Shown here: piece after piece, positions 1,528-51,709 of the stretch
Layout of the letters: each line of letters begins with the position of its first letter
How positions within the stretch are numbered: position 1 is the first letter of the stretch
Assembly: GCA_013214705.1 (NCBI GenBank)
Contig: JABSRZ010000011.1
Span: 1-64,000 of the forward strand
Origin: Hyphomicrobiales bacterium
GTDB lineage: Bacteria; Pseudomonadota; Alphaproteobacteria; Rhizobiales; OSC116
Length of the DNA: 64,000 nt
Reading direction: 5' to 3'
Translations under genes and position numbers: made by a program
Notes under the pieces: model-generated
What the model saw: only the letters and a program-made list of their open reading frames with translations
Told to the model about the DNA's origin: nothing
The model's database searches: none

Positions 1528-1560
1528 GAAAAGCGAAGCCTAAGCTTCGCTTTTCTTTCT
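1528..1560. terminator. Intrinsic terminator, probably bidirectional
   Basis: A perfect 12-bp stem GAAAAGCGAAGC (1528-1539) pairs with GCTTCGCTTTTC (1544-1555) around a four-base CTAA loop. TTTCT follows on the plus strand. It lies about 20 bases beyond the stop of the minus-strand SRPBCC gene and after the plus-strand remnants, so it can end transcripts from either side. Confidence 0.75.
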
Positions 1561-9495: not shown

Positions 9496-10260
9496 TTAAA
9501 CCGAATGCTCAGGTTTCCATTTAATGATAAGCCGTTCGGCAACACTTACAGAAATAAACAATATGACCGCTAACCCAGATGACACAATGACTGTGGCGTA
9601 TAACAGTGGCGATCTAAAATTAAACGTGGCTTCGATAATTAACGACCCTAAGCCAATATCTGCGCCAACCCATTCGCCAACAATCGCACCGATAACACAG
9701 GTTGTAGAGGCGATTTTTAAGGCCGAAAACAAGAAGGGTAGGGATGATTGCAAACGAATTTTCCAAAAGAATTCGGGTTTTGTTGCTGACAATATACGAC
9801 CAAGCTCTATCATCTGCCCGCTGACAGATTCTAAACCACGCACCATATTCACCAATGTGGGGAAAAAGCATATTAGCGCAGCAATGATAACCTTGGTTTC
9901 AATGCCGTTGCCAAATATCAACACTAAAACTGGCGCAACCGCCAAAATAGGGATGGTGTTGACAAATACCGCGATGGGGAAGAAGGCTTTTTCGACCATT
10001 TTATTGTGAACAAACGCGATGGCCAAGGTGATGGCAATAAAGTTACCAACCACAAAACCGGCTAGGCTCTCGAACAAAGTTGGTAGAAAATTGCGCCACA
10101 ACGTGTCTCGTTCCTCGACCAAAGTGGCAAAAACTGAACTTGGTGCGGGGGCAATATATTCAGGAACCCCAAATATTTGAATTCCTAATTCCCAGATGAC
10201 AAAAATCATTGAAGTGGTGAATAATGGCAACCAGTTTTTTTTGAAAAATTTTATAAACAT
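9496..10260 (-). CDS. ABC transporter permease, NitT/TauT (SsuC-like) type
   Basis: A 254-residue membrane protein with about six hydrophobic segments and the permease coupling motif region (GRILSATKPEFFWKIRLQSS followed by LPFLFSALKIAS). This is the BPD_transp_1 domain of the nitrate/sulfonate/taurine class. Its start overlaps the stop of the ATPase gene by one base (TAATG), indicating translational coupling. With the ATPase at 10260 and the binding protein at 11074 it forms a complete importer in the inner membrane. This class imports sulfonates, nitrate, pyrimidine precursors, aromatic acids and others, so the substrate cannot be read from the permease. Confidence 0.88.
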   Translation of the reverse strand: MFIKFFKKNWLPLFTTSMIFVIWELGIQIFGVPEYIAPAPSSVFATLVEERDTLWRNFLPTLFESLAGFVVGNFIAITLAIAFVHNKMVEKAFFPIAVFVNTIPILAVAPVLVLIFGNGIETKVIIAALICFFPTLVNMVRGLESVSGQMIELGRILSATKPEFFWKIRLQSSLPFLFSALKIASTTCVIGAIVGEWVGADIGLGSLIIEATFNFRSPLLYATVIVSSGLAVILFISVSVAERLIIKWKPEHSV

Positions 10261-11069
10261 TAGCAGGTCTCCAAAACTTCTCTCAGATATCGAGAAATTT
10301 TATTAAACTCTTGAGTTTCACGTATTGGCAATTCGCGCGGATAAGGTAAATCTATGTCAATAAGCTCGCGTACGCGCCCGGGATTAGCTTCTAGCATTAA
10401 AACTTTTTGACCTAAGAAAATGGCTTCTGGAATAGAATGAGTGACAAATAATATGGTGGTTTTTGTTTCTTGCCAAATTTTGAGGATTTGCTCGTTCAGC
10501 CGGTCTCGAGTGATCTCGTCCAACGCGCCAAATGGTTCATCCATCAGCAATAGGCGTGGTTTGCATATTAACGCTCTGGCGATGGCAACTCGTTGTTTCA
10601 TGCCGCCAGATAATTCGTGTGGCAAGGCGTTTTCTCGGCCTTTTAAACCGACTAATTCTAATAGTTCCTCGGCTGATTTTTCGCTTTTGGCTTTTGGCCT
10701 TTTATGGGCGTGTTTCGCGCCAATTTCTAACGGCAAGCGTACGTTTTCGATGGCTGTGCGCCACGGTAGCAGCGTTGAATCTTGAAATACAAATGCGAAT
10801 TCTCGCGCCAGACGTGCTGCGGCAACGTGCTGGCCAAATACATTAACTTCACCATCTGCAATCGGCACTAAATCTGAAACCAGACGCAATAAGGTGGATT
10901 TTCCACACCCGGAAGGCCCTAGTATGGTGATAAATGCGCCAGCTTCAACTTCAAGATCGATATTTTCTAGAGCGGTTAAATCACCAAAACGCACCTGAGC
11001 GTTTTTTAAACTAACAGCAGGGGCAGAAGCCCCTCCTGTTTTATTCATATCATGTGTGACATTAGTCAT
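10260..11069 (-). CDS. ABC transporter ATP-binding protein, NitT/TauT (SsuB-like) type
   Basis: A 269-residue ATPase. Walker A is GPSGCGKST, the signature is LSGGMKQR and Walker B is LLLMDEPFGALDE, followed by the switch histidine in FVTHSI. GALDE and the total length are typical of the sulfonate/taurine class. The ATG at 11069 lies just past the stop of the binding-protein gene (11074). An upstream ATG at 11096 would overlap that gene by 23 bases and lacks a ribosome-binding site. The first codons contain a perfect 6-bp hairpin (11019-11034), and its GGAGGGG is unusual inside a coding start. It works with the permease at 9496. Confidence 0.9.
   Translation of the reverse strand: MTNVTHDMNKTGGASAPAVSLKNAQVRFGDLTALENIDLEVEAGAFITILGPSGCGKSTLLRLVSDLVPIADGEVNVFGQHVAAARLAREFAFVFQDSTLLPWRTAIENVRLPLEIGAKHAHKRPKAKSEKSAEELLELVGLKGRENALPHELSGGMKQRVAIARALICKPRLLLMDEPFGALDEITRDRLNEQILKIWQETKTTILFVTHSIPEAIFLGQKVLMLEANPGRVRELIDIDLPYPRELPIRETQEFNKISRYLREVLETC
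11019..11034 (-). promoter_or_regulatory. Small hairpin inside the start of the ATPase gene
   Basis: AGGGGC and GCCCCT form a perfect 6-bp stem with an AGAA (minus strand TTCT) tetraloop, about 40 bases after the binding-protein stop. It could lower read-through or expression of the transporter ATPase relative to the binding protein. There is no U-tract, so it is not an intrinsic terminator. Confidence 0.3.
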
Positions 11070-11073
11070 ATTA

Positions 11074-12114
11074 TTATCCAATTTTTGGACGGTCATTTGC
11101 GGTGGCTTCTAAAATTGACAAAGTCATAACATCATCAACGGTCGGCGTGCTTTTCTTGAACTGACCCAACTCGGAATAGGTATTGATTTGAGTTTCCCAA
11201 TTTTCTCTGGACATTGTGCCCCAGCCATTTTGCTTGGTTTCATTGTTAAATACATAACTTAAAATCAGCGGAACAGCTTCTTTTTCAGAGGCAAGATCCA
11301 TATTAGGATAACGTTCTACCAACAGCTCTGCGGCTTTATCTGGGTTTGCATGAACCCATGCCCAACCTTTTGATGTTGCGCGAACAAAGGCTTCAAATTG
11401 AGCTCCGTTATTTGCCAAATTATCATCAGTTGTGTAATATGGGTTAGCATAAAGTTGCACACCCGCGTCCCAAAGGCGCATGTCATTACGTTGATCGCCT
11501 AATATTTTTAGGGCGTTAATGTTAGACTGCCAACCGGTAACTGCATCCACTTGACCTGTCATCAATGGTGCCATGTCGCCACCCATAACAATAATTTCAA
11601 CATCGGCTTCGTTAATTTGATGTTTAGCTAGCAAAGCGCGCAATAAGATTTTGGCTGTGCCTTGGGTGCCGATTTTTTTGCCAATCATATCTTCTGGGGT
11701 GTTGATAGGGTTGCTTTTCAATGAGAAATAGGTGAATGGATGTTGTTGGTAACCAGTGGCGAAACATTTAATTGGAATGCCCGCTGCCCGTGCCAACATA
11801 AGTGAGGGGCTTGATGAAAGTTGGCCAACATTTGCGCGGCTAGAAGCTACAGATGCGACACCATCAACATTTGGGCCACCAGGGGTGATGTTTAATGTTA
11901 AGCCTTCGGCTTTATAATATCCTAGCGAGTCGGCTGCGACTTCGCCCAGTTGGCCGTTTGAAGCCAACCAACCAAGTTGCATATTGATTTCAAATTCGCC
12001 AGCGGCTGCGGCTTCGGTAATACCAATCATGGTGCCACTAACGGCAACGCCCGCAACACCCATGCCCTTAAGCACCTGGCGGCGGTTTGTTGAAATATCT
12101 AGTGATTTCTTCAT
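11074..12114 (-). CDS. ABC substrate-binding protein, NitT/TauT (NMT1/SsuA-like), Tat signal
   Basis: A 346-residue periplasmic binding protein. The start at 12114 follows GGGAG with good spacing; the frame extends 37 codons further up without support. The N-terminus has a twin-arginine signal, NRRQVLKGMGVAGVAVSGTM, with a likely cut near AAAAGEF, so export folded through Tat is expected. The mature part has the NMT1-type pattern: LGWLASNGQLG, then GPNVDGVASVASSRANVGQ and the hinge region IGTQGTAK. It is the first gene of the operon and lies divergent from a LysR regulator at 12272. The ligand is unknown; the family includes binders of sulfonates, thiamine precursors and aromatic acids. Confidence 0.87.
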   Translation of the reverse strand: MKKSLDISTNRRQVLKGMGVAGVAVSGTMIGITEAAAAGEFEINMQLGWLASNGQLGEVAADSLGYYKAEGLTLNITPGGPNVDGVASVASSRANVGQLSSSPSLMLARAAGIPIKCFATGYQQHPFTYFSLKSNPINTPEDMIGKKIGTQGTAKILLRALLAKHQINEADVEIIVMGGDMAPLMTGQVDAVTGWQSNINALKILGDQRNDMRLWDAGVQLYANPYYTTDDNLANNGAQFEAFVRATSKGWAWVHANPDKAAELLVERYPNMDLASEKEAVPLILSYVFNNETKQNGWGTMSRENWETQINTYSELGQFKKSTPTVDDVMTLSILEATANDRPKIG

Positions 12115-12271
12115 TCTAATCTCCCTTTTTAATGATGCCCAATGAAATATCCGGCGGCTACTCAATTTAACTATCTTGATGTTATACGCAGATAAGTGTG
12201 TATAATAAGAACTATATTTCGCCAATGGCGATGCCTTTTGGGCATCACCTAAAACCTATATTGGAAATCAT
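12115..12271. promoter_or_regulatory. Divergent promoter region between the operon and its LysR regulator
   Basis: This 157-base gap separates two divergent genes. It contains an inverted repeat TTATAC-N12-GTATAA (12182-12205), overlapping a TATAAT at 12201-12206 oriented towards the LysR gene. A second inverted repeat GATGCC-TTTTG-GGCATC lies at 12230-12246. LysR proteins usually bind such dyads in a shared divergent promoter. The assignment rests on position and symmetry only. Confidence 0.45.
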
Positions 12272-17667: not shown

Positions 17668-17922
17668 TTTAAAGTTATGCCAACAAACTAACTTTAAGAA
17701 ATCAGATTTGCAAGGCGCTTGCTAATAAATCACATATTTTGTGGTTTTTATCCACATTATAGAAATTAATTCTTTACATTATTCGATATAACCCTCTATT
17801 GTCACGAAAGTGTAATAATTTCGTACTAATTATGTGATTGTTGAAGCATTTTATTATGATTTGCGACAATATTCCTTTAAATATCATGACATTGAGTTAT
17901 GATTAAAATCTGGGAGGATAAA
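17668..17922. promoter_or_regulatory. Divergent intergenic region with a DeoR-type dyad
   Basis: The 255 bases between the flavoprotein gene and the ABC binding-protein gene are AT-rich. They hold one notable dyad at 17804-17824 and a shorter TGTGG/CCACA repeat at 17740-17756. Both transcription units must start here. No convincing -35/-10 pair could be fixed. Confidence 0.5.
17804..17824. promoter_or_regulatory. Candidate DeoR/GlpR operator, ACGAAA-N9-TTTCGT
   Basis: A perfect inverted repeat with 6-bp arms. CGAAA/TTTCG half-sites are common in operators of DeoR-family repressors, and a DeoR gene lies at the end of the rightward operon (25168). It is placed about 100 bases before the binding-protein start and about 137 bases before the divergent flavoprotein, so one site could serve both. 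Confidence 0.4.
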
Positions 17923-19923
17923 ATGGGAAGACGAATAAATAGGATTACGCTGGCGGCTCTATTGCTACCGGCTGTAACCGTTGCAAACGCTGCGGGTATC
18001 GGGGCGACAGTTGCCAACCCGATGGACTTAAAACCAGCATATGCCAACCAATTAGAATTAAAGAATTTCGAATCCCAAGCGGGCGAAAGTCTTAGTTTTA
18101 CTGGCAACCCATTATTCGCTGATCAGGTGAGTTCTGGTAGTTTACCAAAGGTTGGCGATCGTTTGCCTAGTGAACCTTTGGTGGTGATGCCAATTTCGCA
18201 AACAGGCGAATATGGCGGCATATTAAAAGGCACTGCTTTAGCACTTGAGTCAGGCACATCAGAAATATTGTCTTGGCGTCAAGTAAACCTTGTGCGGTTA
18301 AACCCAGCAGACAACAGCATTGTACCTAATGTTGCCAAGTCTTGGGAATGGAATGCAGATAAAACTGAAATTACATTCACTTTGCGCGAAGGCCATAAAT
18401 GGTCTGATGGAGATGCATTTGATGCCGATGACGTGGTATTTTTTGTTAATGACATCATGCGCAATGAAGAGCTTACCCAATCTGTTTGGGGTAACTGGGC
18501 GCATGGCGGCGAAACTGTAAAAATCAAAAAAATTGATAACCTAACATTCACTTTCATTTTTGCCAAACCAAACCCTGTTTTCTTGCATTATCTAGCCACT
18601 TCGGGTTCTTACTTTACCCCGTGGGCGGCTTCACATGTGCTGAAGCAATATCACATCGACTATAACGAAAATGCCGATGAGGTTGCCAAAGCTGCTGGTT
18701 TCGAAAGCTGGAAAGAGAATTTCAAAACTTATTATCATAAGTGGAAAGATGCTGTAACTGCCACTGAAAAAGGCCTTACAGTTCCGACTCTTGAAAGCCA
18801 CATTTTAGCCAAAGCTACTGATGGCCAAACTCGTGCATTTGTTGCCAACCCGTATTATTTTAAAGTTGATACATCTGGTAACCAATTGCCATATATTGAC
18901 CGTCATAATGAGCGTTTCTTAGAAAAGCAAATTTGGACGCTTGAAGTGATCAATGGCAATATTGATCAAAAATCACAAAATGTCGACTTAGCTGATTTTC
19001 CTTTGATTAAAGAAAATGAAGCCAAGGGCGATTATAGCGTGCATTTAGATGATGGCCAAATTGGACCCGTATTGGTGTTCAACTATACCATTGCAGACAA
19101 AAGCAAAGCTTTTGCTTATGGCAATGCAAATTTCCGCAAAGCTATGTCTGTAGCCATTAACCGTGATGATCTTATTGAGCAACTATATCTAGGTCTAGCC
19201 AATACTGACCAAGCTATGCCAGCAAATATTGGCTTTGCGACTGCGGAAGACCGTGCCTATATGACGGAATTCGACCCTGCAGCAGCCAATAAAATGCTTG
19301 ATGATATGGGCATGACAGCACGTAATGCTGATGGTTATAGAATGGCACCAGATGGAAGTGATTTCAAAATATTCTGGGAATATTCACTACAATTCACTCG
19401 TTCACCTGAATTCCCACTATTGATTGCTGAATATTGGCGTGCTGTTGGCATTGATGTATTGCTAAAAGAAGTGACTACCGAGTTGGTGCGTCAGAAATCT
19501 GACTTGAATGAGTTGGAAATTGGCATGGAATGGGATCTACCATTTGAATGGACATTGATTGCCGAACCTAAAGTATATTCTGCTCCATGGGCAATTGGCG
19601 GACCGATAACTGGCGCAACTTGGGTCAAATATTGGGCGACTAATGGTGCAGAAGGTGAAAAACCTCCTGTATGGGTTGAAGAGCTCCGCACCGCCTCACT
19701 AGCATTTGCAAGCGCAAAACAAGGTAGTGATGAATATATGGCTCTAGGCGCTGAAATGGTTAAGCTTAACCTTGAGAATATGGTGCTTATTGGTACAGCT
19801 GGTGCCGTTCCACAAATTAACATTGTGTCAAATAAATTGGCAAATGTTCCGACATGGAACTTGAATGCATACAGAGCTGGTTTTGCCTATTCGCAACAAA
19901 CCGATCAATGGAGCTTTAAATAG
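17923..19923 (+). CDS. ABC substrate-binding protein, peptide/nickel class (SBP_bac_5), unusually long
   Basis: A 666-residue periplasmic binding protein. The ATG at 17923 follows GGGAGG by five bases and opens a Sec signal peptide (MGRRINRITLAALLLPAVTV, cut after ANA). Family landmarks are the cluster 5 opening VPNVAKSWEWNADKTEITFTL, then EGHKWSDGDAFDADDVVFFV and the later FRKAMSVAINRDDLI. Usual length is 500-600, so it is longer than average, with an extended N-terminal part before the first landmark. It heads an importer of five genes. Class members bind peptides, opines, nickel and many small polar compounds. The nearby glycerol-type enzymes suggest a non-peptide ligand. Confidence 0.9.
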   Translation: MGRRINRITLAALLLPAVTVANAAGIGATVANPMDLKPAYANQLELKNFESQAGESLSFTGNPLFADQVSSGSLPKVGDRLPSEPLVVMPISQTGEYGGILKGTALALESGTSEILSWRQVNLVRLNPADNSIVPNVAKSWEWNADKTEITFTLREGHKWSDGDAFDADDVVFFVNDIMRNEELTQSVWGNWAHGGETVKIKKIDNLTFTFIFAKPNPVFLHYLATSGSYFTPWAASHVLKQYHIDYNENADEVAKAAGFESWKENFKTYYHKWKDAVTATEKGLTVPTLESHILAKATDGQTRAFVANPYYFKVDTSGNQLPYIDRHNERFLEKQIWTLEVINGNIDQKSQNVDLADFPLIKENEAKGDYSVHLDDGQIGPVLVFNYTIADKSKAFAYGNANFRKAMSVAINRDDLIEQLYLGLANTDQAMPANIGFATAEDRAYMTEFDPAAANKMLDDMGMTARNADGYRMAPDGSDFKIFWEYSLQFTRSPEFPLLIAEYWRAVGIDVLLKEVTTELVRQKSDLNELEIGMEWDLPFEWTLIAEPKVYSAPWAIGGPITGATWVKYWATNGAEGEKPPVWVEELRTASLAFASAKQGSDEYMALGAEMVKLNLENMVLIGTAGAVPQINIVSNKLANVPTWNLNAYRAGFAYSQQTDQWSFK

Positions 19924-19944
19924 GCTTTATTAAGACAAAGTGTG

Positions 19945-19967
19945 AGAAGCAGTGAAAACCTGCTTCT
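19945..19967 (+). promoter_or_regulatory. Hairpin between binding-protein and permease genes
   Basis: AGAAGCAG pairs with CTGCTTCT across a 7-base loop, 22 bases after the binding-protein stop. No T-run follows, so it is more likely an mRNA-stabilising 3' end or a partial attenuator than a full terminator. Confidence 0.5.
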
Positions 19968-20057
19968 TGCAACCCATACTTTAATAATCTTTGTTAATTC
20001 TGTTTATTTGTGAATAATGTTTTAAGATTTATACTCGCCTAATTGACAAGGAATATC

Positions 20058-29813: not shown

Positions 29814-29825
29814 AAGGAGATGAAA

Positions 29826-31421
29826 ATGAATAAATTGTCCAAACTAATTATTGCGGGGTTGATGACCGCATCAAGCCTGACTATGGGGGCGCTAAGTGTA
29901 AATGCAGAAACCGTGTTGCGACTAGATGAAGTTGCCGTAGGCGAGCTAGACCCGGCAAAAGCTTCGGATTATGCCGATTCCATTTTGATGTTCAACATGT
30001 ATGACACTTTGATTTTGCCAAAACAAGGTGGGCCTGGACATGTAGCTCATTTGGCCAGTAGCTGGGAAACCGATGGGGCGTCTTACACATTTACTTTGCG
30101 CGATGATGTGAAATTCCAAAGCGGAAACGCGTTTACGGCTGAAGATGTGGTATTTTCATTTGAAAGAACAAAAGCTCTGGGAGCCGGACTTTCTTACTTA
30201 TTTGGTGATATAGAATCTGTCGTAGCGATAGATGCCAACACGGTTAAATTCACCTTGGCAAGAGCCTATGCGCCGTTTGTGGCTTCATTGGTAAGGTTGC
30301 CAATATTAGACAAAAAATTAGTCATGGCCAATTTAGGTGATGGTGAAGGCGAAATGAAAGATTGGGGTCAAGCATTCCTTTCTGGCAATAGTGCGGGCAC
30401 TGGCGCCTATTCAGTTGTTTCACACAACCCGCAAGAAGAAACGGTTATGGCCAAAAGCAGCAGTTATTTTGCCGCTATGAACGCAGCCGCACCTGATACA
30501 GTTAGGCTACGTTATGGCCTAGAAGCCGCCACAGTGCGCACGTTGATTGCGCAAGGCCAACATGATATTTCATCGCAATGGTTACCGCCTGAAGTGATGA
30601 AAGCTTTGGTAAATGACGGTGCGCAATTGTTTAAAGAAGCTGGTACTGGTGCGTTTTACTTTAAAATGAACACCACAAAAGCGCCGTTAGATGATGTGAA
30701 TTGTCGCTTGGCTCTGGCCAATGCATTTGATTATGAAACTGCGGTTAAAATGATTGCAGTGACTGATGATGTTGCGCAAGGTAGTGCCGCCACGGGTGCC
30801 ATTCCGGTGGGTATGTTTGGTGCAAACCCTGCCTCCAATACATCTAGCCAGAATATGGAAGCGGCTAAACAATATTTAGCTGATTGTAAATATGATGCAG
30901 CAGAGATGGATATCGAAATATCTTGGATTGCTGAAGTTCCGCTTGAAGAACGCTTTGCTTTGTTAATGCAATCTAATTTCACTCAATTGGGCATTGCATC
31001 TCACATTAAGAAACTGCCATGGGCATTATTTGCAGAGCAAGTGTCTAAAGCCGAAAACACCCCGCATATTTCACAATTATTTGTGAATGCTGTGACCGGT
31101 GACCCCGATACATTATTGTATGGCATGTATCATTCTTCAGTGCCAGGCACTTGGCAGTCGCCAGAGCATTTGAACGATGCTGAAGTTGATAAATGGCTTG
31201 AAGCGGGTAGAGCTGGTACCAATGACGCTGAACGTGAAGCGGCTTATAGCGCGCTTAATAAACGCTTGTTAGCCATTGCACCAACTATATATGGCTTTGA
31301 TAGGCAATCTGTATTTGTGGCCAGCTCACGGGTGAGCGCACCAGCACTTACAGACCCAAGCAAAGCCTTCGGTCTAGATGGAATGGGTTTCTCATTCCGC
31401 CTCATGGAAATGTCGGAGTAA
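29826..31421 (+). CDS. ABC substrate-binding protein, peptide class (SBP_bac_5)
   Basis: A 531-residue binding protein, the normal family length. The ATG at 29826 follows AGGAG by about seven bases and opens a Sec signal peptide (MNKLSKLIIAGLMTASSLTM, cut after NAE or just before). Landmarks are HLASSWETDGASYTFTLRDD, VKFQSGNAFTAEDVVFSFER and DDVNCRLALANAFDYETAV. It is a different lineage from the long protein at 17923. A terminator-like hairpin follows its stop, so it is probably made in excess over the permeases. The hydantoinase-type enzymes downstream suggest a cyclic amide or peptide-like ligand. Confidence 0.9.
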   Translation: MNKLSKLIIAGLMTASSLTMGALSVNAETVLRLDEVAVGELDPAKASDYADSILMFNMYDTLILPKQGGPGHVAHLASSWETDGASYTFTLRDDVKFQSGNAFTAEDVVFSFERTKALGAGLSYLFGDIESVVAIDANTVKFTLARAYAPFVASLVRLPILDKKLVMANLGDGEGEMKDWGQAFLSGNSAGTGAYSVVSHNPQEETVMAKSSSYFAAMNAAAPDTVRLRYGLEAATVRTLIAQGQHDISSQWLPPEVMKALVNDGAQLFKEAGTGAFYFKMNTTKAPLDDVNCRLALANAFDYETAVKMIAVTDDVAQGSAATGAIPVGMFGANPASNTSSQNMEAAKQYLADCKYDAAEMDIEISWIAEVPLEERFALLMQSNFTQLGIASHIKKLPWALFAEQVSKAENTPHISQLFVNAVTGDPDTLLYGMYHSSVPGTWQSPEHLNDAEVDKWLEAGRAGTNDAEREAAYSALNKRLLAIAPTIYGFDRQSVFVASSRVSAPALTDPSKAFGLDGMGFSFRLMEMSE

Positions 31422-31433
31422 TATTCCCTGACG

Positions 31434-31466
31434 ACCCGAGCTTTATACCAGCTCGGGTATTTTTTT
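31434..31466 (+). terminator. Terminator-like hairpin after the binding-protein gene
   Basis: ACCCGAGCT (31434-31442) and AGCTCGGGT (31450-31458) form a perfect 9-bp GC-rich stem with a 7-base loop, followed by A and seven T. This is a standard intrinsic terminator, placed inside the operon only 12 bases after the binding-protein stop. It must be partial if the downstream genes use the same promoter. Confidence 0.8.
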
Positions 31467-31471
31467 AGAAA

Positions 31472-32506
31472 GTGGCGAATATGCCCACCTCTTTCATTAT
31501 TTTATTTAAACGACTTTTTACTTCTTTCATTGTGCTTATTGGCGTGTCAATGCTCATTTTTACCATTGCACGTATCATACCGGGTGACCCCGCGCGCATT
31601 GCTTTAGGGCCAAATGCTACGTTAGAAGCAGTGGCCAATTTACGGGCAAACTTGCATTTAGATGAATCAATCATTGTGCAATATGGTTATTTTATTTGGA
31701 ATTTGTTACATGGGGATTTGGGCATTTCGCTTTATACCAACCGCCCGGTGCTGTTAGATATTGGGCAGTTTTTGCCCGCCACATTAGAGTTGGTATTTGT
31801 CGCCGGGTTTATTATGGTGGCGATTGGTTTGCCGCTGGGCGCGATAGCCGCCCGTTACCGTGGCAAATTTATAGATCATGTTATTAGAATTTTATCACTA
31901 TTAGGTGTGTCCGCACCCTCATTTGTGTGGGCGGTGATCTTGATGCTGATGTTTGCGTTTTACTTGCCGATATTTCCCATTGCGGGGCGCATAACCGATA
32001 GTTATACCATTCAAGCGGTCACCGGTTTTTTGTTGCTAGACACGCTTATTGCTGGCGAATATAGAGCTTTCGGCGATGCGTTTTGGCATTTGATATTGCC
32101 AGCCTTTGCTTTGGCATTATCGGGCATTGGGCAAGCCGCACGCTTAACCCGCGCCAATATGATTGAAACCTATGACAAGCCATATATTGAAATGGCGCAA
32201 TCTTATGGGTTTTCAGAAAAAAGAATAGCTTCCAAATTTGCTTTCAAACCTTCGCTCATACCATCTATGACCATTATTGGGTTAGACTTTGCGGCGATGT
32301 TGGGCAATGCGTTTTTGGTCGAAGCGGTGTTTGCGTGGCCGGGGCTATCGCGTTACGGTGTGGCGGTAATTTTGCGCAAAGACCTTAACGCCATTGTTGG
32401 CACTGTGTTGGTGATCTCGGCAACATTTTTAATTGTGAATATAATTGTCGATTTGCTGATTGCTTTTATCAATCCTCGCATTCGTTTTTCTACGAGGCGC
32501 TCATGA
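31472..32506 (+). CDS. ABC transporter permease, DppB type
   Basis: A 344-residue permease. The N-terminal FIVLIGVSMLIFTIARIIPG (about 15-34) and PGDPARIALGPNATLEAV are the DppB hallmark, with ANLRANLHLDESIIVQYGYF next. The coupling loop is around AQSYGFSEKRIASKFAFKPS. The start is a GTG at 31472 or the ATG at 31481, and neither has a strong ribosome-binding site, which fits lower expression than the binding protein. The stop overlaps the next gene by four bases. Confidence 0.9.
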   Translation: MANMPTSFIILFKRLFTSFIVLIGVSMLIFTIARIIPGDPARIALGPNATLEAVANLRANLHLDESIIVQYGYFIWNLLHGDLGISLYTNRPVLLDIGQFLPATLELVFVAGFIMVAIGLPLGAIAARYRGKFIDHVIRILSLLGVSAPSFVWAVILMLMFAFYLPIFPIAGRITDSYTIQAVTGFLLLDTLIAGEYRAFGDAFWHLILPAFALALSGIGQAARLTRANMIETYDKPYIEMAQSYGFSEKRIASKFAFKPSLIPSMTIIGLDFAAMLGNAFLVEAVFAWPGLSRYGVAVILRKDLNAIVGTVLVISATFLIVNIIVDLLIAFINPRIRFSTRRS

Positions 32507-35059: not shown

Positions 35060-35562
35060 CGGATTTGTCTAATTTTGCCACGGCGCTGGCGAAGGCTGAA
35101 AACCAGCCGCAGTTTACTTATGAAAGTCTTTACATATTTGCCGACCAGTTAATTGGTGCAAAATTGTTCACCCTCACTGCAATAGATAATAGACGCCAAA
35201 TGGCAAGGCGCGTGTTTTCTAATTTGCCAGAGGCTTACCCATTGCTTGGCACCAAGCCGATGCCAGATGATATGTGGACACAACAAGTTATTGGGCGTCA
35301 TGAGACGTTTGTCGCCAATAATATTGACGCCATCGCCAACGTGTTTTTTGACTATGAGTTGATAAAATCGCTTGGCTGCGAGTCGGTGATAAACATTCCG
35401 ATTGTTGTGGCTGGTAAAGTTTTGGGTACTATCAATTGCCTGCACCAAGCCAACCATTATTCGCCAAACCATGTTGCTTTGTCAGAACAATTAAAACTTT
35501 TGGGCGTGGCGGCTTTTCTTTTGAATAATTCTCGTTCATCATTGGGAGATACAAATGAGTGA
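35056..35562 (+). CDS. Small GAF-domain protein
   Basis: A 168-residue protein that is mostly one GAF domain: GAKLFTLTAIDNRRQMARRV at the start, a middle helix FDYELIKSLGCESVINIPIV, and the final strands AGKVLGTINCLHQANHY. No output domain is present. Single GAF proteins bind small ligands or, in the free-methionine-sulfoxide reductase branch, use cysteines; only one or two cysteines (Cys in LGCES and INCLH) are seen here. It overlaps the ATPase gene by four bases and HyuA by eight, so it is part of the operon. It may sense or handle the substrate of the HyuA/HyuB enzymes. Confidence 0.8.
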   Translation: MTDLSNFATALAKAENQPQFTYESLYIFADQLIGAKLFTLTAIDNRRQMARRVFSNLPEAYPLLGTKPMPDDMWTQQVIGRHETFVANNIDAIANVFFDYELIKSLGCESVINIPIVVAGKVLGTINCLHQANHYSPNHVALSEQLKLLGVAAFLLNNSRSSLGDTNE

Positions 35563-37624
35563 TAAATCTATACGTGTGGCCACTGATGTTGGTGGAACGT
35601 TTACCGATCTGGTGTGTTTTGAAACTGATTTAACCAGCGGAGAGTCTGTGATCATCACCGCAAAAACGGACACCACGCCGCCAAATTTTGAGCAAGGCGT
35701 GTTGAATGTGCTGGCCAAGGGCAATGTTGACCCTGCCACCATCGATTTTTTAGCGCATGGCACAACTGTGGTGATAAATTCACTTACCGAGCGAAAAGGC
35801 GCAAAAGTCGGCTTGATTACCACGCTGGGTTTTCGCGATACATTAGAGATAGCCCGCGGCAATAGACCTGACTTTTTTAATTTACATTATGAAAAGCCTG
35901 AACCATTTGTGCCGCGTTATTTGCGTAAAGAATTGCCGGGTCGGATGTCTTATCAGGGTGAGGAAATGACCGCGCTAGATTTGAGCGGTTTAAAAGAAAT
36001 ACTAGATGGGTTTAAGCAAGAAAAAGTTGAAGCCGTGGCCATTTGTTATTTGCATTCATATGCCAACCCAGACCATGAATTGCGCACTTTGGCTGAAGTT
36101 GCCAAACTTTGGCCAGAGGTGGCAGTGGTTTCGTCTCATCAAATAACCCGCGAATGGCGGGAATATGAACGCACCAGCACCACTGTACTTTCGGCTTATG
36201 TACAACCATCTGCAGAGCGATATTTGCAACGCTTAGATGCCGGGTTAAAAGCCAAAGGCTTTAAGGGCAGCCCTTATATTATGCAATCTAATTGCGGTGT
36301 GGATTCGCTTGAATCGGTTTCAAAAATTCCCATCACCATGGTTGAGTCTGGCCCAGCATCTGGTTTTTGGGGCGCGGCCGAGCTAGGCAAACAAATAGGT
36401 GAAGCTAATGTTTTGGCGCTTGATATTGGCGGCACGACTGCCAAATGCTCGCTAATTGAAAATGGCCAAATATCTATTATGACTGATTATTGGATCGAGC
36501 GTGACCGCACATCGGCTGGTTATCCGATTATGGTGCCAGTGGTGGATTTGGTTGAAATTGGCAATGGCGGTGGCTCTATCGCCTGGGTTGATGATTTTAA
36601 AAAATTGCATGTTGGGCCGCAATCGTCTGGCGCAGTGCCGGGCCCGGCGGCTTATGGCAAAGGCGGCCATGAAGCCACTTCGACCGATGCTAATTTATGG
36701 CTGGGGCGAATTAATAAAGACTATTTCTGTGGTGGGGCTATTTCTGCAGACATGCAAGCTGCCAAAAAATCTTTGGCCGCCATTGGCGAAAAACTTGGCG
36801 TGGATGTAGATGAAGCGGCACGCGGCATCATTCGGATTGCCAACAATAACATGGTCAACGCGCTTAAATTAATTTCGTTAAATAGAGGGTTTGACCCACG
36901 CGATTTTACCATGGTGGCGTTTGGTGGCGGTGGGGCGATGCACGCAGTGGCTTTGGCGCAAGAATTAGGGGTTAAAAAAGTTATCATTCCGGCTGGAGCG
37001 GCGGTATTTTCGGCTTGGGGTATGATGATGTCAGACCTTCGACGGGACTATTTTGTCACCCATTTGGTGGATTTAATACCTAGCGCGGCAGAAGAAATAG
37101 AGCATGTATTCGCGACTTCAGAAAATGAAGCCTATGAGCGTTTTGAAGCCGAAGGGGTTGCGCGGTCTAAAGTTAAGTTCGAGCGTTACGGTAAATTCCG
37201 CTATCAAAACCAAGAACACACAACCGAGGTATTGTTGGCGCAAGGAGAGGTAACCAGCGACCGTTTGGCCGAAATAGAAGCTTCATTTCATGACACTTAT
37301 GAACGCGAATATACTTACCGCTTGGATGCACCGGTTGAAATGGTGGGCATTCATTTGGTCGCCTCGGCAGAGGTTGGCAAATTAAAAATGACTGAAACCG
37401 AGGCTGCCGGGACGTCGGTAAAAATTGCTTTAAAATCGCAACGGGAAGTTGATTATGCGCTTGAGGGCAAGCATATGGCGGACATTTATGATGGTGACTT
37501 GTTGGAAAGCGGCATGACGTTTTCTGGGCCGGCGATTGTTGAAGATGCGGGCACAACTGTGGTTGTTCATCCGGGCAATCAGGTTAAAATCGACGGTTAC
37601 GGAAATTTACACATCAGCTTTTAA
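35555..37624 (+). CDS. hyuA: Hydantoinase/oxoprolinase subunit A (HyuA)
   Basis: A 689-residue HyuA-type subunit, full length. The N-terminal ATP-binding motif is RVATDVGGTFTDLVCFETD. The middle domain starts with LALDIGGTTAKCSLIENGQI, and GNGGGSIAWVDDFKKLHVGP and AFGGGGAMHAVALAQELGV follow in the normal order. The family (5-oxoprolinase, N-methylhydantoinase, acetone carboxylase relatives) uses ATP to open or carboxylate a carbonyl substrate and works with a HyuB subunit, encoded directly downstream. Hydrolysis of a cyclic amide such as 5-oxoproline or a hydantoin is the likeliest reaction. The exact one is not fixed by sequence. Confidence 0.92.
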   Translation: MSDKSIRVATDVGGTFTDLVCFETDLTSGESVIITAKTDTTPPNFEQGVLNVLAKGNVDPATIDFLAHGTTVVINSLTERKGAKVGLITTLGFRDTLEIARGNRPDFFNLHYEKPEPFVPRYLRKELPGRMSYQGEEMTALDLSGLKEILDGFKQEKVEAVAICYLHSYANPDHELRTLAEVAKLWPEVAVVSSHQITREWREYERTSTTVLSAYVQPSAERYLQRLDAGLKAKGFKGSPYIMQSNCGVDSLESVSKIPITMVESGPASGFWGAAELGKQIGEANVLALDIGGTTAKCSLIENGQISIMTDYWIERDRTSAGYPIMVPVVDLVEIGNGGGSIAWVDDFKKLHVGPQSSGAVPGPAAYGKGGHEATSTDANLWLGRINKDYFCGGAISADMQAAKKSLAAIGEKLGVDVDEAARGIIRIANNNMVNALKLISLNRGFDPRDFTMVAFGGGGAMHAVALAQELGVKKVIIPAGAAVFSAWGMMMSDLRRDYFVTHLVDLIPSAAEEIEHVFATSENEAYERFEAEGVARSKVKFERYGKFRYQNQEHTTEVLLAQGEVTSDRLAEIEASFHDTYEREYTYRLDAPVEMVGIHLVASAEVGKLKMTETEAAGTSVKIALKSQREVDYALEGKHMADIYDGDLLESGMTFSGPAIVEDAGTTVVVHPGNQVKIDGYGNLHISF

Positions 37625-37641
37625 TATTGAGGAGAGGGACT

Positions 37642-39306
37642 ATGACACAATCTAAATATGACCCGATTACGTTAGAAATTATTCAGAATTCGCTGCAAGC
37701 CACGGCCGATGAAATGTTTGCCGCCATGCGCAAAACCGCGATGAGTTCGATAATCTATGAAGTGTTGGATATGGGCACAGGCATAATGGATGGCAAAGGC
37801 AATCTGGCCTCATCAGGCGCTGGCATACCGGCTTTTATCGGCGTTTTGGACAAAGCCGTGGCGGTGTTAATTAAGAAGTTTGACCAGCCGGGAGACATCG
37901 AACCGGGTGACGTATTTGCCACCAATGACCCTTATTATGGCGGGGTGACACATTTGAATGACATCATAGTGGCTATGCCGGTATTTGTCGGTGATAAAAT
38001 CATCGCGTGGACGGCCAATATTGCTCACAATTCTGATGTTGGTGGCATGGCGCCGGGGTCTTTAAGCGGTGATGCGACTGAGATATTTCAGGAAGGGTTG
38101 CGATTGCCTGCTATCAAGATCATTTCAAAAGGCAGGCCTATTCAATCTGTTATGGATATAATTACGGTTAACTCGCGCATGCCGGATGTATTAAAAGGCG
38201 ACTTGTGGGCGGCCATTTCATCCACCCGCATTGGGGTGAAGCGGCTGTTGGAATTGTCGGCAAAATATGGCGTTGATACGTTTGAATATGCCATGGTTTC
38301 ATTTATGGATTTTGGCGAAAAAGTCTCTCGCACCGAAATGGCACACCTGCCGAAAGGTGTTTTTGAGTTGTCGGAAGAACAAGATGATGGCCGTATTTTT
38401 AATGTAAAAATTACCATTACCGATGATGATTTTACGGTTGACCTGCGCGATAACCCCGACCAGACCAACAGCCCGGTTAATACCAGTCGTGATGGGGTGA
38501 TGGTGGCTGCGCAAATGATTTTTAAATCGCTTACCGACCCTTATTCGCCATGCAATGAAGGCTCGTTTAGGCCGATAAATCTACTCACCCGCGAGGGCAG
38601 CGTATTTCATGCGCAAGAGCCAGCGCCCATTGGGTTTTATTATGAAATTGAACTGCGGGTATATGATTTGATTTGGCGCTGTTTGGCGCAAGTGATGCCA
38701 GAGCGTTTGGCGGCCGGGCATTTTGCCTCGGTTTGTGGTACATTTATTGGCGGCATTCACCCAGATACTGGACGCCAATATACAATTATCGAACCGCAAA
38801 TTGGTGGTTGGGGCGCTAGCATATCGCGCGATGGAAATAATGCCATGTTCTGCGGGTTTCATGGCGAAACTTATAACTGCCCGGCCGAAATTAATGAGGC
38901 GCGCAATGGCTTGATTGTTGACCGTATGGAATTGAATATGGAAGCCGGTGGTGAAGGCAAATATACCGGTGGGCGCGGCATTCGGATGGATTATAGACTG
39001 CGCGGCGATGATGGATTTTTAACCGCTGGCTATACCCGGTCTAAAATCCCAGCTTGGCCAGCTGATGGGGGCGCTGAGGGCTCATCTAATTATATAGAGG
39101 TTATTCGTACCGATGGTTCGGCCGAAACCTATGCATTTGTTTCGGGGTTAACCACCAATAAAGATGACATTATTAGAGTTGTGACCGGAAATGGTGGCGG
39201 GTTTGGCGACCCGAAAGATAGAGACCCCGAAGCCATTCGCCAAGACATTCGCAATGGGTTTATAAGCCCAGAACGGGCCAAACAGGTTTATGGATATGTA
39301 AAGTGA
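37642..39306 (+). CDS. hyuB: Hydantoinase/oxoprolinase subunit B (HyuB), copy 1
   Basis: A 554-residue HyuB-type subunit. Landmarks are DPITLEIIQNSLQATADEMF, then FATNDPYYGGVTHLNDI, GSLSGDATEIFQEGLRLP and NTSRDGVMVAAQMIFKSL. The C-terminus has GGEGKYTGGRGIRMDYRL and GNGGGFGDPKDRDPEAIRQD, as expected. The ATG at 37642 follows GGAGAGG; an in-frame TTG at 37627 is rejected. It pairs with HyuA. A second HyuB gene of similar sequence lies at 41272 in the same operon, so one HyuA may serve two B subunits. Confidence 0.92.
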   Translation: MTQSKYDPITLEIIQNSLQATADEMFAAMRKTAMSSIIYEVLDMGTGIMDGKGNLASSGAGIPAFIGVLDKAVAVLIKKFDQPGDIEPGDVFATNDPYYGGVTHLNDIIVAMPVFVGDKIIAWTANIAHNSDVGGMAPGSLSGDATEIFQEGLRLPAIKIISKGRPIQSVMDIITVNSRMPDVLKGDLWAAISSTRIGVKRLLELSAKYGVDTFEYAMVSFMDFGEKVSRTEMAHLPKGVFELSEEQDDGRIFNVKITITDDDFTVDLRDNPDQTNSPVNTSRDGVMVAAQMIFKSLTDPYSPCNEGSFRPINLLTREGSVFHAQEPAPIGFYYEIELRVYDLIWRCLAQVMPERLAAGHFASVCGTFIGGIHPDTGRQYTIIEPQIGGWGASISRDGNNAMFCGFHGETYNCPAEINEARNGLIVDRMELNMEAGGEGKYTGGRGIRMDYRLRGDDGFLTAGYTRSKIPAWPADGGAEGSSNYIEVIRTDGSAETYAFVSGLTTNKDDIIRVVTGNGGGFGDPKDRDPEAIRQDIRNGFISPERAKQVYGYVK

Positions 39307-39332
39307 AAGTTTAAAAACCAAAGGAAATTAAA

Positions 39333-40133
39333 ATGTTAAAACCGTTGAAAGTTATGTATTTTAACCCGGTGGGAACTTCAGGTTATGACCAAATGTTTGC
39401 AGATATGGTAAAAGATCATAAGCTTCCGGGAACCGAGGTTCACGTCACATCCCTGCCGGCGGAAAATGGCGCTTTTACACATATTGAATATCGCGCCTAT
39501 GAATCTATGGTCACCGGTGGGACGATAAGGGCAGCAAGAGCGGCGGCCAAAGAAGGGTTTGATGCGTTTGTCATCGGCTGTTTTTATGACACCGCATTGC
39601 ATGACGCGCGGGAAATGTCTGGCGAAATGATTGTGACCGCACCATGTGTGGCGGCGGTTGAAATAGCCAGCAGCTTGGCCAATCGGTTTGGGATCATTGT
39701 TGGCAGGCGCAAATGGGTCAATCAAATGTCATCTACGGTTAAAGACATTGGGCAATATGAACGGCTTACTGGGTTTTACCATGTGGGTTTAGGGGTGAAT
39801 GATTTTCAGACAGATCATGCAAAAACCAATGAGTTATTGATAGAGGCGGGGCGCAAAGCGGTTGAGGAAGACTATGCCGAAGCGCTGATACTTGGTTGCA
39901 CATTGGAAGTTGGTTTTTACAAACAAATTGAACAGCAGCTCGGCGTGCCGGTGATAGACCCTTCGATCGCCGCGCTTAAACGCGCTGAATATGGCGCGAT
40001 TTTAAAACGCCAATGCGGCTGGATACCTAGCCGCAAATGGTCTTGTGAAGCACCACCTGAAGCAGAATTAGCCCAACTGGGTGTTTTTGATGAGGGCGAA
40101 GCCTTTGGCAACCGCATCATTGTTGCGGCTTGA
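39333..40133 (+). CDS. Aspartate/glutamate/hydantoin racemase family protein
   Basis: A 266-residue protein with the two-cysteine active site of the Asp/Glu racemase fold: Cys83 in VIGCFYDTALHDARE and Cys189 in LILGCTLEVGF. The opening NPVGTSGYDQMFADMV replaces the NPN-type start of classic hydantoin racemases but keeps the phosphate-loop-like turn. Two-base proton transfer between the cysteines would racemise a hydantoin or amino-acid carbon. A maleate-isomerase or decarboxylase role is possible in this superfamily. It is placed between HyuB and an M24 peptidase gene, which supports racemisation of the HyuAB substrate or product. Confidence 0.85.
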   Translation: MLKPLKVMYFNPVGTSGYDQMFADMVKDHKLPGTEVHVTSLPAENGAFTHIEYRAYESMVTGGTIRAARAAAKEGFDAFVIGCFYDTALHDAREMSGEMIVTAPCVAAVEIASSLANRFGIIVGRRKWVNQMSSTVKDIGQYERLTGFYHVGLGVNDFQTDHAKTNELLIEAGRKAVEEDYAEALILGCTLEVGFYKQIEQQLGVPVIDPSIAALKRAEYGAILKRQCGWIPSRKWSCEAPPEAELAQLGVFDEGEAFGNRIIVAA

Positions 40134-40162
40134 ATTAGTATCTATATTGGATTGGAAGTGAG

Positions 40163-41260
40163 ATGAGTTTTGAAATTTCAAATACACGTTTAAAGCAATT
40201 GCGCCAAAAAATGCGTGTCGCAAATGTTGGGCTATTGGCGCTGGGGCCAGCCGAACATATGCAATGGCTTTTGGGTTTTCACCCGCATGCCGATGAACGG
40301 CCTTGTTTGCTATTGATAACCGCCGACAGTGAAGCTTTTTTAATGCCAAGTCTAAATGCTGAAGGCAGCCGCGACCATACAGACATAAAGTTTTTTAAAT
40401 GGTCGGATGATGAAGGGCCAGCGCAAGCCTTAACCGCGATGTTGTCGGAATTAAACCTTACCGATGTGGCAAAAATTGCAGTCGATGAAACCATGCGGGC
40501 AGATTTTGCGTTGTTATTGCTCGGGCAATTGCCAAATACTGAACATCAATTCACTAGCGATACGCTTGGTATATTAAGAATGAAAAAAGACCAAACTGAT
40601 TATGTGAGCCTAAAAGAAAATGCACTGATTTGCGATGGCGCCATGCAAGCTGGGTTTGAAGCGATAAAAATTGGTGTGTCTGAAACTGATATCCAAGCCG
40701 TGATTAAAGATTATTTTGCTGCACATCACGCGCCGATGCTGTTTGGCATTGTTGGTATTGGCTCAAATGGGGCTTTTCCGCATCATCAAACAGGCGAGCG
40801 TTTGGTGCAAGATGGCGATGTGGTGTTGATTGATATTGGCGGTAAGAAAGGTATTTTTCCGTCCGATATGACTCGGATGGCCATTGTTAATGAGGCGCCG
40901 GAGGATTACCATAAAATTCATGCGATTGTTGAAGCCGCCGTGTGTGCAGCCTTGAAAGCCGCCAAGCCCGGAGTGCGGGCAGCTGAAGTAGATGCCGCCG
41001 CCAGAGAGGTTATTGAGTTGGCGGGCTATGGCGAATATTTTGTTCATCGTACCGGGCATGGCCTCGGCCTCGAATTACATGAACCGCCCTATATAACCGC
41101 CACTTCAGAAACCATATTAGAAGCGGGCATGGTGTTTTCCATCGAACCGGGGATATATTTGCCGGGCAAGTTTGGCATCAGGCTAGAGGAAATTGTTATT
41201 TTACGCGAAGATGGGCCAGAAATATTATCTGAATTGTCGCGTAAAGTGCGGGTGGTTTGA
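40163..41260 (+). CDS. M24-family metallopeptidase (Xaa-Pro peptidase/prolidase type)
   Basis: A 365-residue pita-bread protein. The N-terminal 125 residues form a creatinase-type N-domain. The C-domain keeps all the metal ligands: the two aspartates in LIDIGGKKGIFPSDMTRMAI, the histidine in GHGLGLELHEPPY, and glutamates in FSIEPGIYLPG and RLEEIVIL. Because the ligands are intact, a metal-dependent Xaa-Pro peptidase or related amidase is likelier than a creatinase, which lacks metal. It may cleave a proline-like or N-acyl dipeptide taken up by the operon transporter. Confidence 0.88.
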   Translation: MSFEISNTRLKQLRQKMRVANVGLLALGPAEHMQWLLGFHPHADERPCLLLITADSEAFLMPSLNAEGSRDHTDIKFFKWSDDEGPAQALTAMLSELNLTDVAKIAVDETMRADFALLLLGQLPNTEHQFTSDTLGILRMKKDQTDYVSLKENALICDGAMQAGFEAIKIGVSETDIQAVIKDYFAAHHAPMLFGIVGIGSNGAFPHHQTGERLVQDGDVVLIDIGGKKGIFPSDMTRMAIVNEAPEDYHKIHAIVEAAVCAALKAAKPGVRAAEVDAAAREVIELAGYGEYFVHRTGHGLGLELHEPPYITATSETILEAGMVFSIEPGIYLPGKFGIRLEEIVILREDGPEILSELSRKVRVV

Positions 41261-41271
41261 AAGGCTAAAAA

Positions 41272-42846
41272 ATGTCACAAAGAGTTGATGGTTTTACAAT
41301 ATCTGTCATTCAAGCGTCATTGATTGCCAGTGCCGAAGAAATGTTTGCAGTGATAAAAAAAACCGCAATGAGCCCGATAATATATGAAGTGTTGGATGTC
41401 GGAACTGGCATAACTGACGCAAATGGTGAGCTTTTAAGCTCTGGAGCGGGTATACCATCATTCATTGGCGTGTTGGACAAAGCGGTTAAACGCATTTTAC
41501 AAATTTACGGCAAACCGCAGATTAATGATGGCGATTTATTTGTAACCAATGACCCATATTTTGGCGGCGTGACGCATCTAAATGATGTGGTGATTGCCAT
41601 GCCGGTGTTTGAATCTGGTAAATTAATTGCGTGGACGGCATCGATTGCGCATTGGAACGACATTGGCGGCATGGTCGCGGGCTCGATGTCGGTTGATGCC
41701 ATAGAGATTTTTCAGGAAGGATTGCGCTTACCTGCGGTTCGTCTATTTGATGCCGGGCAAAAAATAGACTCGGTATTTGACATTATTATGGCCAATTCTA
41801 GGTTGCCGACATTTGTCAAAGGCGACCTGTGGGCGCAGATTGCGGCCAGCCGACGCGCTGGCAATAGGCTGCAAATATTGGTCGACACTTATGGCCATGA
41901 CGCTTATCTGCAAGCCATTGAGGCTTTATTTGCCGAAGGCGAAGCGCGCGGCTTGGCAGGCTTGGCAGAGTTGCCTAGCGGCAGCTTTGAAGTTGAAGAA
42001 GAACAAGATGATGGCGCTTTGTGGCGGGCAATCATCACCATATCTGATGATAAATTTGTGGTTGATCTAACTGGCAACCCGGCGCAAACAAATGGCCCGT
42101 TTAATACCAGTCGTGATGGCGCTATCATCGCCTCTCAGATGATTTTTAAGGCCTTGACCGACCCAACCTTATTTGCAAATTCTGGCTCATTTCGGGCTTT
42201 AGAAGTTATCACCGTAGCCGGCACGGTTTTTCATGCTACGCCGCCTGCGGCACATGGGTTTTATTTTGAAACCCGCATCAGATTATATGACATGTTGTGG
42301 CGTTGCTTGTCGCAACAGTTTCCAGAGCGCTTGCCCGCTGGGCATTTTGCCTCTATTTGTGCGACGGTTATTGCTGGCAACCACCCCGATACTGGGCGGC
42401 GTTATACCATGGTCGAGCCGCAAATGGGCGGCTGGGGTGCGACCAACCAACGTGATGGGTTGGATGCCATGTATGCCACCGGCCACGGCGATACATTTAA
42501 CTGCCCGGTTGAAATATGTGAAGCCCGCTATGGTATAGATGTTGGTTATAAAAGACTGAATGATTTAGTGCCAAACGATGATTTGTATAAAGGCGGGCGC
42601 GGGGTTGAGTTGAGTTATTTACCTCGCGGTGCGGCCATTTTATCGGCTGGTTATAGCCGCAATCGCATACCGGTTTGGGGCGCAAATAATGGCAGCAATG
42701 GTGGCACCAATGGGCTTGAGGTGATTAAGCCAGATGGCAGCACAAAACCCTATGCATATGCCAGCGGCATTGCCATTGAACCGGGTGACCAAATTAGAAT
42801 TTTTACCGCCAATGGCGGCGGATGGGGCAAAGCTCCCAGAGCTTGA
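41272..42846 (+). CDS. hyuB: Hydantoinase/oxoprolinase subunit B (HyuB), copy 2
   Basis: A 524-residue HyuB paralogue with the same order of landmarks as the copy at 37642: SVIQASLIASAEEMF, TNDPYFGGVTHLNDVV, MSVDAIEIFQEGLRLP and FNTSRDGAIIASQMIFKAL. The C-terminus GGRGVELSYLPRGAAILSAG and FTANGGGWGKAPRA ends about 30 residues earlier than copy 1. No HyuA lies next to it. The copies are clearly diverged, so this is an old duplication with probable change of substrate or a mixed complex. It is the last gene of the operon. Confidence 0.9.
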   Translation: MSQRVDGFTISVIQASLIASAEEMFAVIKKTAMSPIIYEVLDVGTGITDANGELLSSGAGIPSFIGVLDKAVKRILQIYGKPQINDGDLFVTNDPYFGGVTHLNDVVIAMPVFESGKLIAWTASIAHWNDIGGMVAGSMSVDAIEIFQEGLRLPAVRLFDAGQKIDSVFDIIMANSRLPTFVKGDLWAQIAASRRAGNRLQILVDTYGHDAYLQAIEALFAEGEARGLAGLAELPSGSFEVEEEQDDGALWRAIITISDDKFVVDLTGNPAQTNGPFNTSRDGAIIASQMIFKALTDPTLFANSGSFRALEVITVAGTVFHATPPAAHGFYFETRIRLYDMLWRCLSQQFPERLPAGHFASICATVIAGNHPDTGRRYTMVEPQMGGWGATNQRDGLDAMYATGHGDTFNCPVEICEARYGIDVGYKRLNDLVPNDDLYKGGRGVELSYLPRGAAILSAGYSRNRIPVWGANNGSNGGTNGLEVIKPDGSTKPYAYASGIAIEPGDQIRIFTANGGGWGKAPRA

Positions 42847-50635: not shown

Positions 50636-51655
50636 ATGAATTTTAAGAAAATATTTAAGACAAGTCTGATGGCTACGTCTTTGATCGTGGCATCAACTGT
50701 TGCGACTGCCGTACAGGCCGAAGGTGAGCGCATTGCTTTCTTCGTTTCTGATTTATCTAACGTGTTTCATCAATCTCAAGCGGCTGAAGCTGTACGTTAT
50801 GGTAAAGAAAAATATGGCGTTGAAGTTGTTATTTTTGATGGTCAAGCCGATTCAGCTGTGATGACACAAAATGTGGATCAAATCGTTGCTGGTGCATTTG
50901 ACGGCGCTACATTGCATATTTGGGATGGTGAAGCTGCCACACCGGGTATTAATGACGCTCTTGCTGATGGCATTGCGGTAACATCTTTCTTTAACCCAAT
51001 TACTGATACTGGCATTCCTACAGCGCGTAGTGATGAAGCTGGTGTTTCTTTTGAAATGGGTGCCCAAATGGCAACCGCTTGGATAAAAGCTCATCCAAAC
51101 ACACCTATCAAAATGGTTCAGCTTGGTTGGCCTAACCATACGGAAGTAAACTCAGGCCGTACTAACCCGTTTGCTGCTGGTGTTTTATCTGTGGCTCCAA
51201 GTGCTAGAAATCTAGGTGCTTTGGATTCAAGTGGTGGTCAAGAAGCTGCTAAACAAATCATCGTTGATTTGTTGACCCAACAACCTGACGTTAACATCAT
51301 CTATTCAGAAGCTTCAAACCTAACTGTTGGCACAATGGCTGGTCTTTCTCAGCTTGGTCGTGGCAAATTTGATAATGGTAAGCCTTTGACAGAAATCGTA
51401 GCCAGTGTTGACTTTGATACTGTTGAATTTGACCTAATCTATGATGCAAATTCAAGCCTTAAAGTTTCTATGGGTCTCCCACCAGTTGAAACTGCACAAG
51501 GCCGTATCGATCTAGTGATGGATGTTATAAACGGTAAAATTGCAGCCACATCAAGCCCTGCTGAAGAGTTTTACTATAAAGCTTATACCATCTCTTATTG
51601 GTCAATGGATGAAGCTGATGCTTCAACATGGTTAGCTGCTCAGTTCGGCGGATAG
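50636..51655 (+). CDS. Sugar ABC transporter substrate-binding protein (RbsB class)
   Basis: A 339-residue periplasmic binding protein of the LacI-like Peripla_BP_4 fold. GGAGGG before the ATG gives a strong ribosome-binding site. The Sec signal is MNFKKIFKTSLMATSLIVAS with a cut after VQA. The mature start RIAFFVSDLSNVFHQSQAAE and the hinge pieces VDQIVAGAFDGATLHIWDGE and YDANSSLKVSMGLPPVETAQ are family landmarks. It is the first gene of a four-gene sugar importer. A hairpin follows its stop. The GlpD-like and FGGY enzymes downstream suggest a sugar alcohol or related sugar. Confidence 0.92.
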   Translation: MNFKKIFKTSLMATSLIVASTVATAVQAEGERIAFFVSDLSNVFHQSQAAEAVRYGKEKYGVEVVIFDGQADSAVMTQNVDQIVAGAFDGATLHIWDGEAATPGINDALADGIAVTSFFNPITDTGIPTARSDEAGVSFEMGAQMATAWIKAHPNTPIKMVQLGWPNHTEVNSGRTNPFAAGVLSVAPSARNLGALDSSGGQEAAKQIIVDLLTQQPDVNIIYSEASNLTVGTMAGLSQLGRGKFDNGKPLTEIVASVDFDTVEFDLIYDANSSLKVSMGLPPVETAQGRIDLVMDVINGKIAATSSPAEEFYYKAYTISYWSMDEADASTWLAAQFGG

Positions 51656-51665
51656 AATTAAGTTT

Positions 51666-51709
51666 ACTTGGCGATCGATTATGAATAAGAATTAGGTTGA
51701 TCGCCAAGT
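51666..51709 (+). promoter_or_regulatory. Long-loop hairpin after the sugar binding-protein gene
   Basis: ACTTGGCGATC (51666-51676) pairs perfectly with GATCGCCAAGT (51699-51709), 11 bp with a 22-base loop, starting 10 bases after the stop. No T-run follows. It probably protects the binding-protein transcript from 3' decay or partly blocks read-through. Confidence 0.55.

Follow-up and report, generated by a model that had tools for sequence, protein, structure and literature searches.

Binding-protein genes of importer operons in this genome are, with few exceptions, followed by a strong hairpin just past their stop codons, and at orthologous junctions the hairpin persists while the sequence of its stem and the U tract behind it do not. 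We consider it likely that this hairpin is an intercistronic stoichiometry element, which serves as a 3' protector of the binding-protein mRNA and which, where a U tract follows the stem as it does at 31434, probably acts in addition as a partial terminator. Coordinates refer to the window, that is, the whole stretch of 64,000 nt of DNA that was analyzed.

The stem-loop at 31434 separates a binding-protein gene from a permease gene (Table 1) and begins 12 nt past the stop codon of the former. T makes up eight of the nine nucleotides counted after the last G or C of the stem, and the perfect, GC-rich stem plus seven T that the first-pass annotation had described between these two genes is confirmed. 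From the end of the stem it is 13 nt to the GTG listed as the permease start and 22 nt to the ATG at 31481, which is the more likely start as judged by eye against the ortholog starts. The predicted folding energy is -15.9 kcal/mol, a value reached by 2 of 200 shuffled versions of a 51-nt piece and by 1 of 1000 shuffled versions of the 50-nt gap. Two known designs are recognizable at this site: (i) a G+C-rich stem of at least about 7 bp with a U tract right behind it, which makes this copy a candidate intrinsic terminator, and (ii) a stable structure between the stop codon of a binding-protein gene and the next importer gene, as in the malE-malF type, for which a U tract is not needed. A consensus scan for sigma-70-like sequences gave no match on the plus strand between 29099 and 32417, and an internal promoter for the permease was rejected on this basis. 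The importer is followed, at 35555-42846, by hydantoinase/oxoprolinase A and B genes, an Asp/Glu/hydantoin racemase gene and an M24 peptidase gene, which suggests that a cyclic amide or an amino-acid derivative is imported and degraded.

Table 1. Binding-protein junctions of the window and the hairpins found at them
Feature	Position	Strand	Details
Periplasmic binding-protein gene, SBP_bac_5 (upstream cistron)	29820-31421	+	Pfam PF00496, E 5.8e-62
Stem-loop	31434-31458	+	perfect 9-bp stem, 6 G-C pairs, 7-nt loop
U tract ATTTTTTT	31459-31466	+	directly 3' of the stem; seven T at 31460-31466
Permease gene, BPD_transp_1	31472-32506	+	GTG 31472 as listed
Stem-loop after SBP_bac_5 gene 17899-19923	19941-19971	+	perfect stem at 19945; 1/9 T, no U tract
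Stem-loop after Peripla_BP_4 gene 50636-51655	51666-51709	+	15-bp stem, 14-nt loop; 4/9 T, no U tract
Stem-loop after NMT1 gene 11074-12225 (minus)	11013-11040	-	5/9 T, no U tract

According to Pfam, the window holds four binding-protein genes, all of which adjoin importer genes. The first-pass annotation had spoken of four importers of different families with internal terminators; the four genes belong to three Pfam families, since SBP_bac_5 occurs twice beside Peripla_BP_4 and NMT1. The hairpins that it placed at 19945-19967 and 51666-51709 are found at those coordinates, and the weaker one at 11019-11034 exists as well, on the minus strand, where it falls not in a clear gap but within the start of the listed ATPase ORF (10260-11096, minus). 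None of these three has a U tract, so that the term terminator fits, by sequence, only the 31434 copy: what the four cases have in common is a hairpin rather than a terminator.

The whole genome (3.5 Mb, 45 contigs) was searched for seven binding-protein families, and the next genes were named by Pfam; this comparison uses simple ORF calls, not annotation, for both genes and start codons. Removal of three duplicates (L011, L046 and L062) reduced 69 loci to 66 genes, and in 40 of these the next gene encodes an ABC or TRAP subunit; eight regulators with a DNA-binding domain and 18 genes without a shown following importer gene were kept apart. We scored hairpins of -14 kcal/mol or better within a 45-nt limit, both limits having been chosen after the first 40 genes had been seen. 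By this measure all 40 genes that precede an importer gene carry a hairpin, with an onset 2-35 nt past the stop codon, and in 34 of them no part of it overlaps the next ORF, even when that ORF is read from its earliest start. Among junctions matched for gap length (40-250 nt), the hairpin is present at 33/33 binding-protein junctions vs 15/85 other same-strand junctions (Fisher p 5.7e-18). The controls were sampled from 400 kb of the same genome; one of the 15 matches belongs to a binding-protein gene (ABC_sub_bind, L139), and the sampled stretches also contain two further binding-protein genes found later. The hairpin follows 2 of the 8 regulators, which combine the Peripla_BP_4 fold with the DNA-binding domain, and 12 of the 18 genes without a shown importer gene.

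Two loci from the search stand somewhat apart: L026 and L027 match PF13416 without an obvious signal peptide, and the next gene encodes a CoA-transferase in one case and an oxidoreductase in the other, rather than an importer subunit. A multicopper-oxidase-like gene (L152:8629-9729), the N-terminus of which looks exported, has a like hairpin 14 nt past its stop codon and a same-strand gene 72 nt on, and the design may extend beyond importers.

Because the thresholds had been set after inspection of the first 40 genes, four further families were run. In these, five binding-protein genes precede an importer gene, and two of the five carry a hairpin within the strict limits: the OpuAC and TctC genes have a hairpin plus a U tract, the hairpin of one Bmp gene lies 72 nt downstream, outside the limit, and no hairpin of the required strength and position follows the second Bmp gene (36-nt gap) or the ZnuA gene (no gap). 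The proposal that the design is a general rule in this genome, which had been based on four examples, gains strongly from the 40/40 in seven families but is tempered by the 2/5 in the later ones. Pooled, 42/45 genes carry the hairpin. The rule is strong but not absolute, and it is broken chiefly at junctions with a small gap or none. In the same genus, a protein similarity search gave 25 further loci of the SBP_bac_5 type, and after exclusion of one with too short a flank the hairpin was present in 24/24.

We then compared orthologous junctions, using relatives of the 29820-31421 protein with 63-77% identity. Four of 66 loci (L125 and L133-L135) were incomplete or distant, which left 62 usable ones, and after five with gaps above 130 nt and six without an assigned permease start had been left out, 51 junctions remained. 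The hairpin is kept in 50/51 of these (gaps up to 130 nt), at a median of 12 nt past the stop codon and 24 nt ahead of the permease, and the longest perfect stem in the gaps averages 9.0 bp vs 4.9 bp in shuffles. The stems themselves fall into about 30 unrelated sequence clusters. Folding of the whole gap is only moderately better than that of shuffles (z below -2 in 33/51), and covariation, which was considered as proof and dropped, is weak in the one alignable group of eight related junctions (six distinct), with one compensatory pair and a score matched by 28/500 shuffles. The distances of the stem from the permease, here as in the orthologs, leave the start region outside the stem and do not support sequestration of the permease start. 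In four rhizobial orthologs (L105, L111, L116 and L117) the gaps after the binding-protein gene measure 217-278 nt; the hairpins in them look like dispersed repeat elements, and a repeat may have replaced the junction hairpin there.

A hairpin of this kind is ordinary in design and already established in E. coli and clostridia. In Wu et al. 2022 (PMC9045158), stem-loops after binding-protein genes of cellulolytic clostridia, many of them U-poor, terminate 21-96% of transcription in a reporter, at least 15 such stem-loops are predicted in E. coli, and the mechanism is believed to be widespread. The likeness to our junctions is close, with a single stem-loop between the binding-protein and translocator genes in both, and the clostridial examples are long-stemmed and often have few U; a stem-loop downstream of the binding-protein gene is what we find in 40/40 genes of the first seven families and 2/5 of the later ones. 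Unlike the clostridial terminators, which were measured in that reporter, the hairpins described here are predicted from sequence, and the orthologs are mostly from Alphaproteobacteria and mostly lack a U tract. In E. coli, according to Dar and Sorek 2018 (PMC5927463), a structure between malE and malF stabilizes malE, the cistron that gains stability in five ABC operons (malE and four more) is that of the binding protein, and protective structures are as a rule found within coding sequence. The 31434 hairpin resembles the malE-malF structure in lying in the gap between binding protein and permease, but it is nearer to the stop codon than the malE hairpin, and the stems here form no repeat family. 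Among 14 hand-picked E. coli K-12 junctions, nine have a hairpin by our measure, including nikA, which has no gap, so that its match falls in the following gene. Strong hairpins lie 59-64 nt downstream of malE, dppA and gltI (64 nt past the stop codon for malE), the livK hairpin lies one nucleotide outside the position limit, and gsiB has no hairpin within the limits. Titles and abstract openings in the small-RNA, rhizobial, TRAP and Rhodobacter literature gave no report of such a hairpin rule in Alphaproteobacteria. New here are the near-universality of the hairpin in one genome and its persistence in orthologs without a conserved stem sequence or U tract.

The nearest competitor to a protective role, which we regard as unlikely, is that all copies are plain internal intrinsic terminators, each of which stops a fixed share of the polymerases, with the low-U copies acting as weak ones. 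The tail at 31434 and the spread of T content across the genome are in part what one would expect of such elements: at least six T of nine follow the stem in 14 of the 40 hairpins, to which the label terminator can be extended, four or five in a further 13, and, in Wu et al. (PMC9045158), low-U copies with long stems still terminate. The remaining 13 hairpins have three T or fewer, however, and the same study reports no termination by a stem without its tail. Only 1/51 orthologs has a U tract of at least six T, and in the nearest ortholog (L157, same genus) the hairpin is present and the U run absent. Since 50/51 keep the hairpin and the T count stays below six in 50/51, what they share is not intrinsic termination; the hairpin is the kept element, and the U tract of 31434 looks like a local addition. 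The lack of U is in itself no proof that transcripts do not end at these hairpins, because convergent gene ends are equally U-poor: where a hairpin stands at the end of a gene that faces an opposite gene, at least six T follow it in 5/23 cases in this genome and 1/13 at the ortholog loci. We accordingly set aside the argument from missing U tracts alone.

Far less probable is that the binding-protein mRNA releases a small RNA whose 3' end is the hairpin and whose U tail would bind Hfq. The model would be E. coli SroC, the annotation of which places it between gltI and gltJ, at an equivalent junction of an importer operon, and the tail at 31434 is U-rich; but the window contains no match to any Rfam family, stem sequence and U tail are both unconserved, and a candidate short RNA here would, unlike SroC, be one without conserved sequence. 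MalH, which was considered as an RNA from the malE gap, is reported to derive from malG instead.

Finally, we find it hardly credible that the hairpins are due to chance or are functionless leftovers of mobile, REP-like repeats. Perfect stems are indeed not in excess over the whole window: a scan for Watson-Crick stems of at least 8 bp with loops of 3-9 nt found three only (1528, 19945 and 31434), vs a mean of 8.5 in shuffled windows (both strands), and E. coli and some rhizobial gaps seem, by eye, to use repeat-like hairpins. Against this stand the gap-matched comparison, the position kept in the orthologs and the mutual dissimilarity of the stems; among the 40 there is not one similar pair at the 75% identity level, which rules out a spreading repeat of the REP type with shared sequence. 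Perfect stems of at least 8 bp that are followed by at least six T of nine number 2 in the window vs 0.1 in shuffled windows (64 kb, both strands). Apart from 31434, the only strong terminator-like hairpin in the perfect-stem scan is at 1528-1555 (plus strand), with a 12-bp perfect stem, a 4-nt loop and 6/9 T.

We therefore return to the stoichiometry element and describe how it would work. Gene order and spacing suggest that the binding protein, permeases and ATPases share one transcript, on which the stem-loop would sit between a ribosome finishing the binding-protein gene and one starting on the permease. When the message is cut, trimmed or terminated downstream, the hairpin would form an exonuclease-resistant 3' end of the binding-protein mRNA, and the protected mRNA would allow the binding protein to be made in excess. 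At 31434, part of the polymerases would probably stop at the U tract, as at a leaky intrinsic terminator, and the rest would read through into the permease. By analogy, and as follows from the experiments in E. coli and clostridia, the hairpin probably serves differential expression, providing more capture protein than membrane channel. More tentatively, and with less than even confidence, we suggest that a hairpin just past the stop codon is near-obligatory for binding-protein genes in this lineage and selected on position and pairing only, such that the mode would turn over between leaky terminator and plain 3' protector as orthologous junctions gain and lose U tracts, while the excess of binding protein would stay constant.

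The results support a simple rule for one genome: binding-protein cistrons from several unrelated families can be told by a strong hairpin no more than about 35 nt past the stop codon. They also separate a constant part, the hairpin, from a variable part, the U tract, and this separation makes it directly testable whether the stoichiometry of importers is set by termination or by RNA stability. The rule is, in addition, an aid to the placement of start codons and to the reading of RNA-seq data from importer operons.
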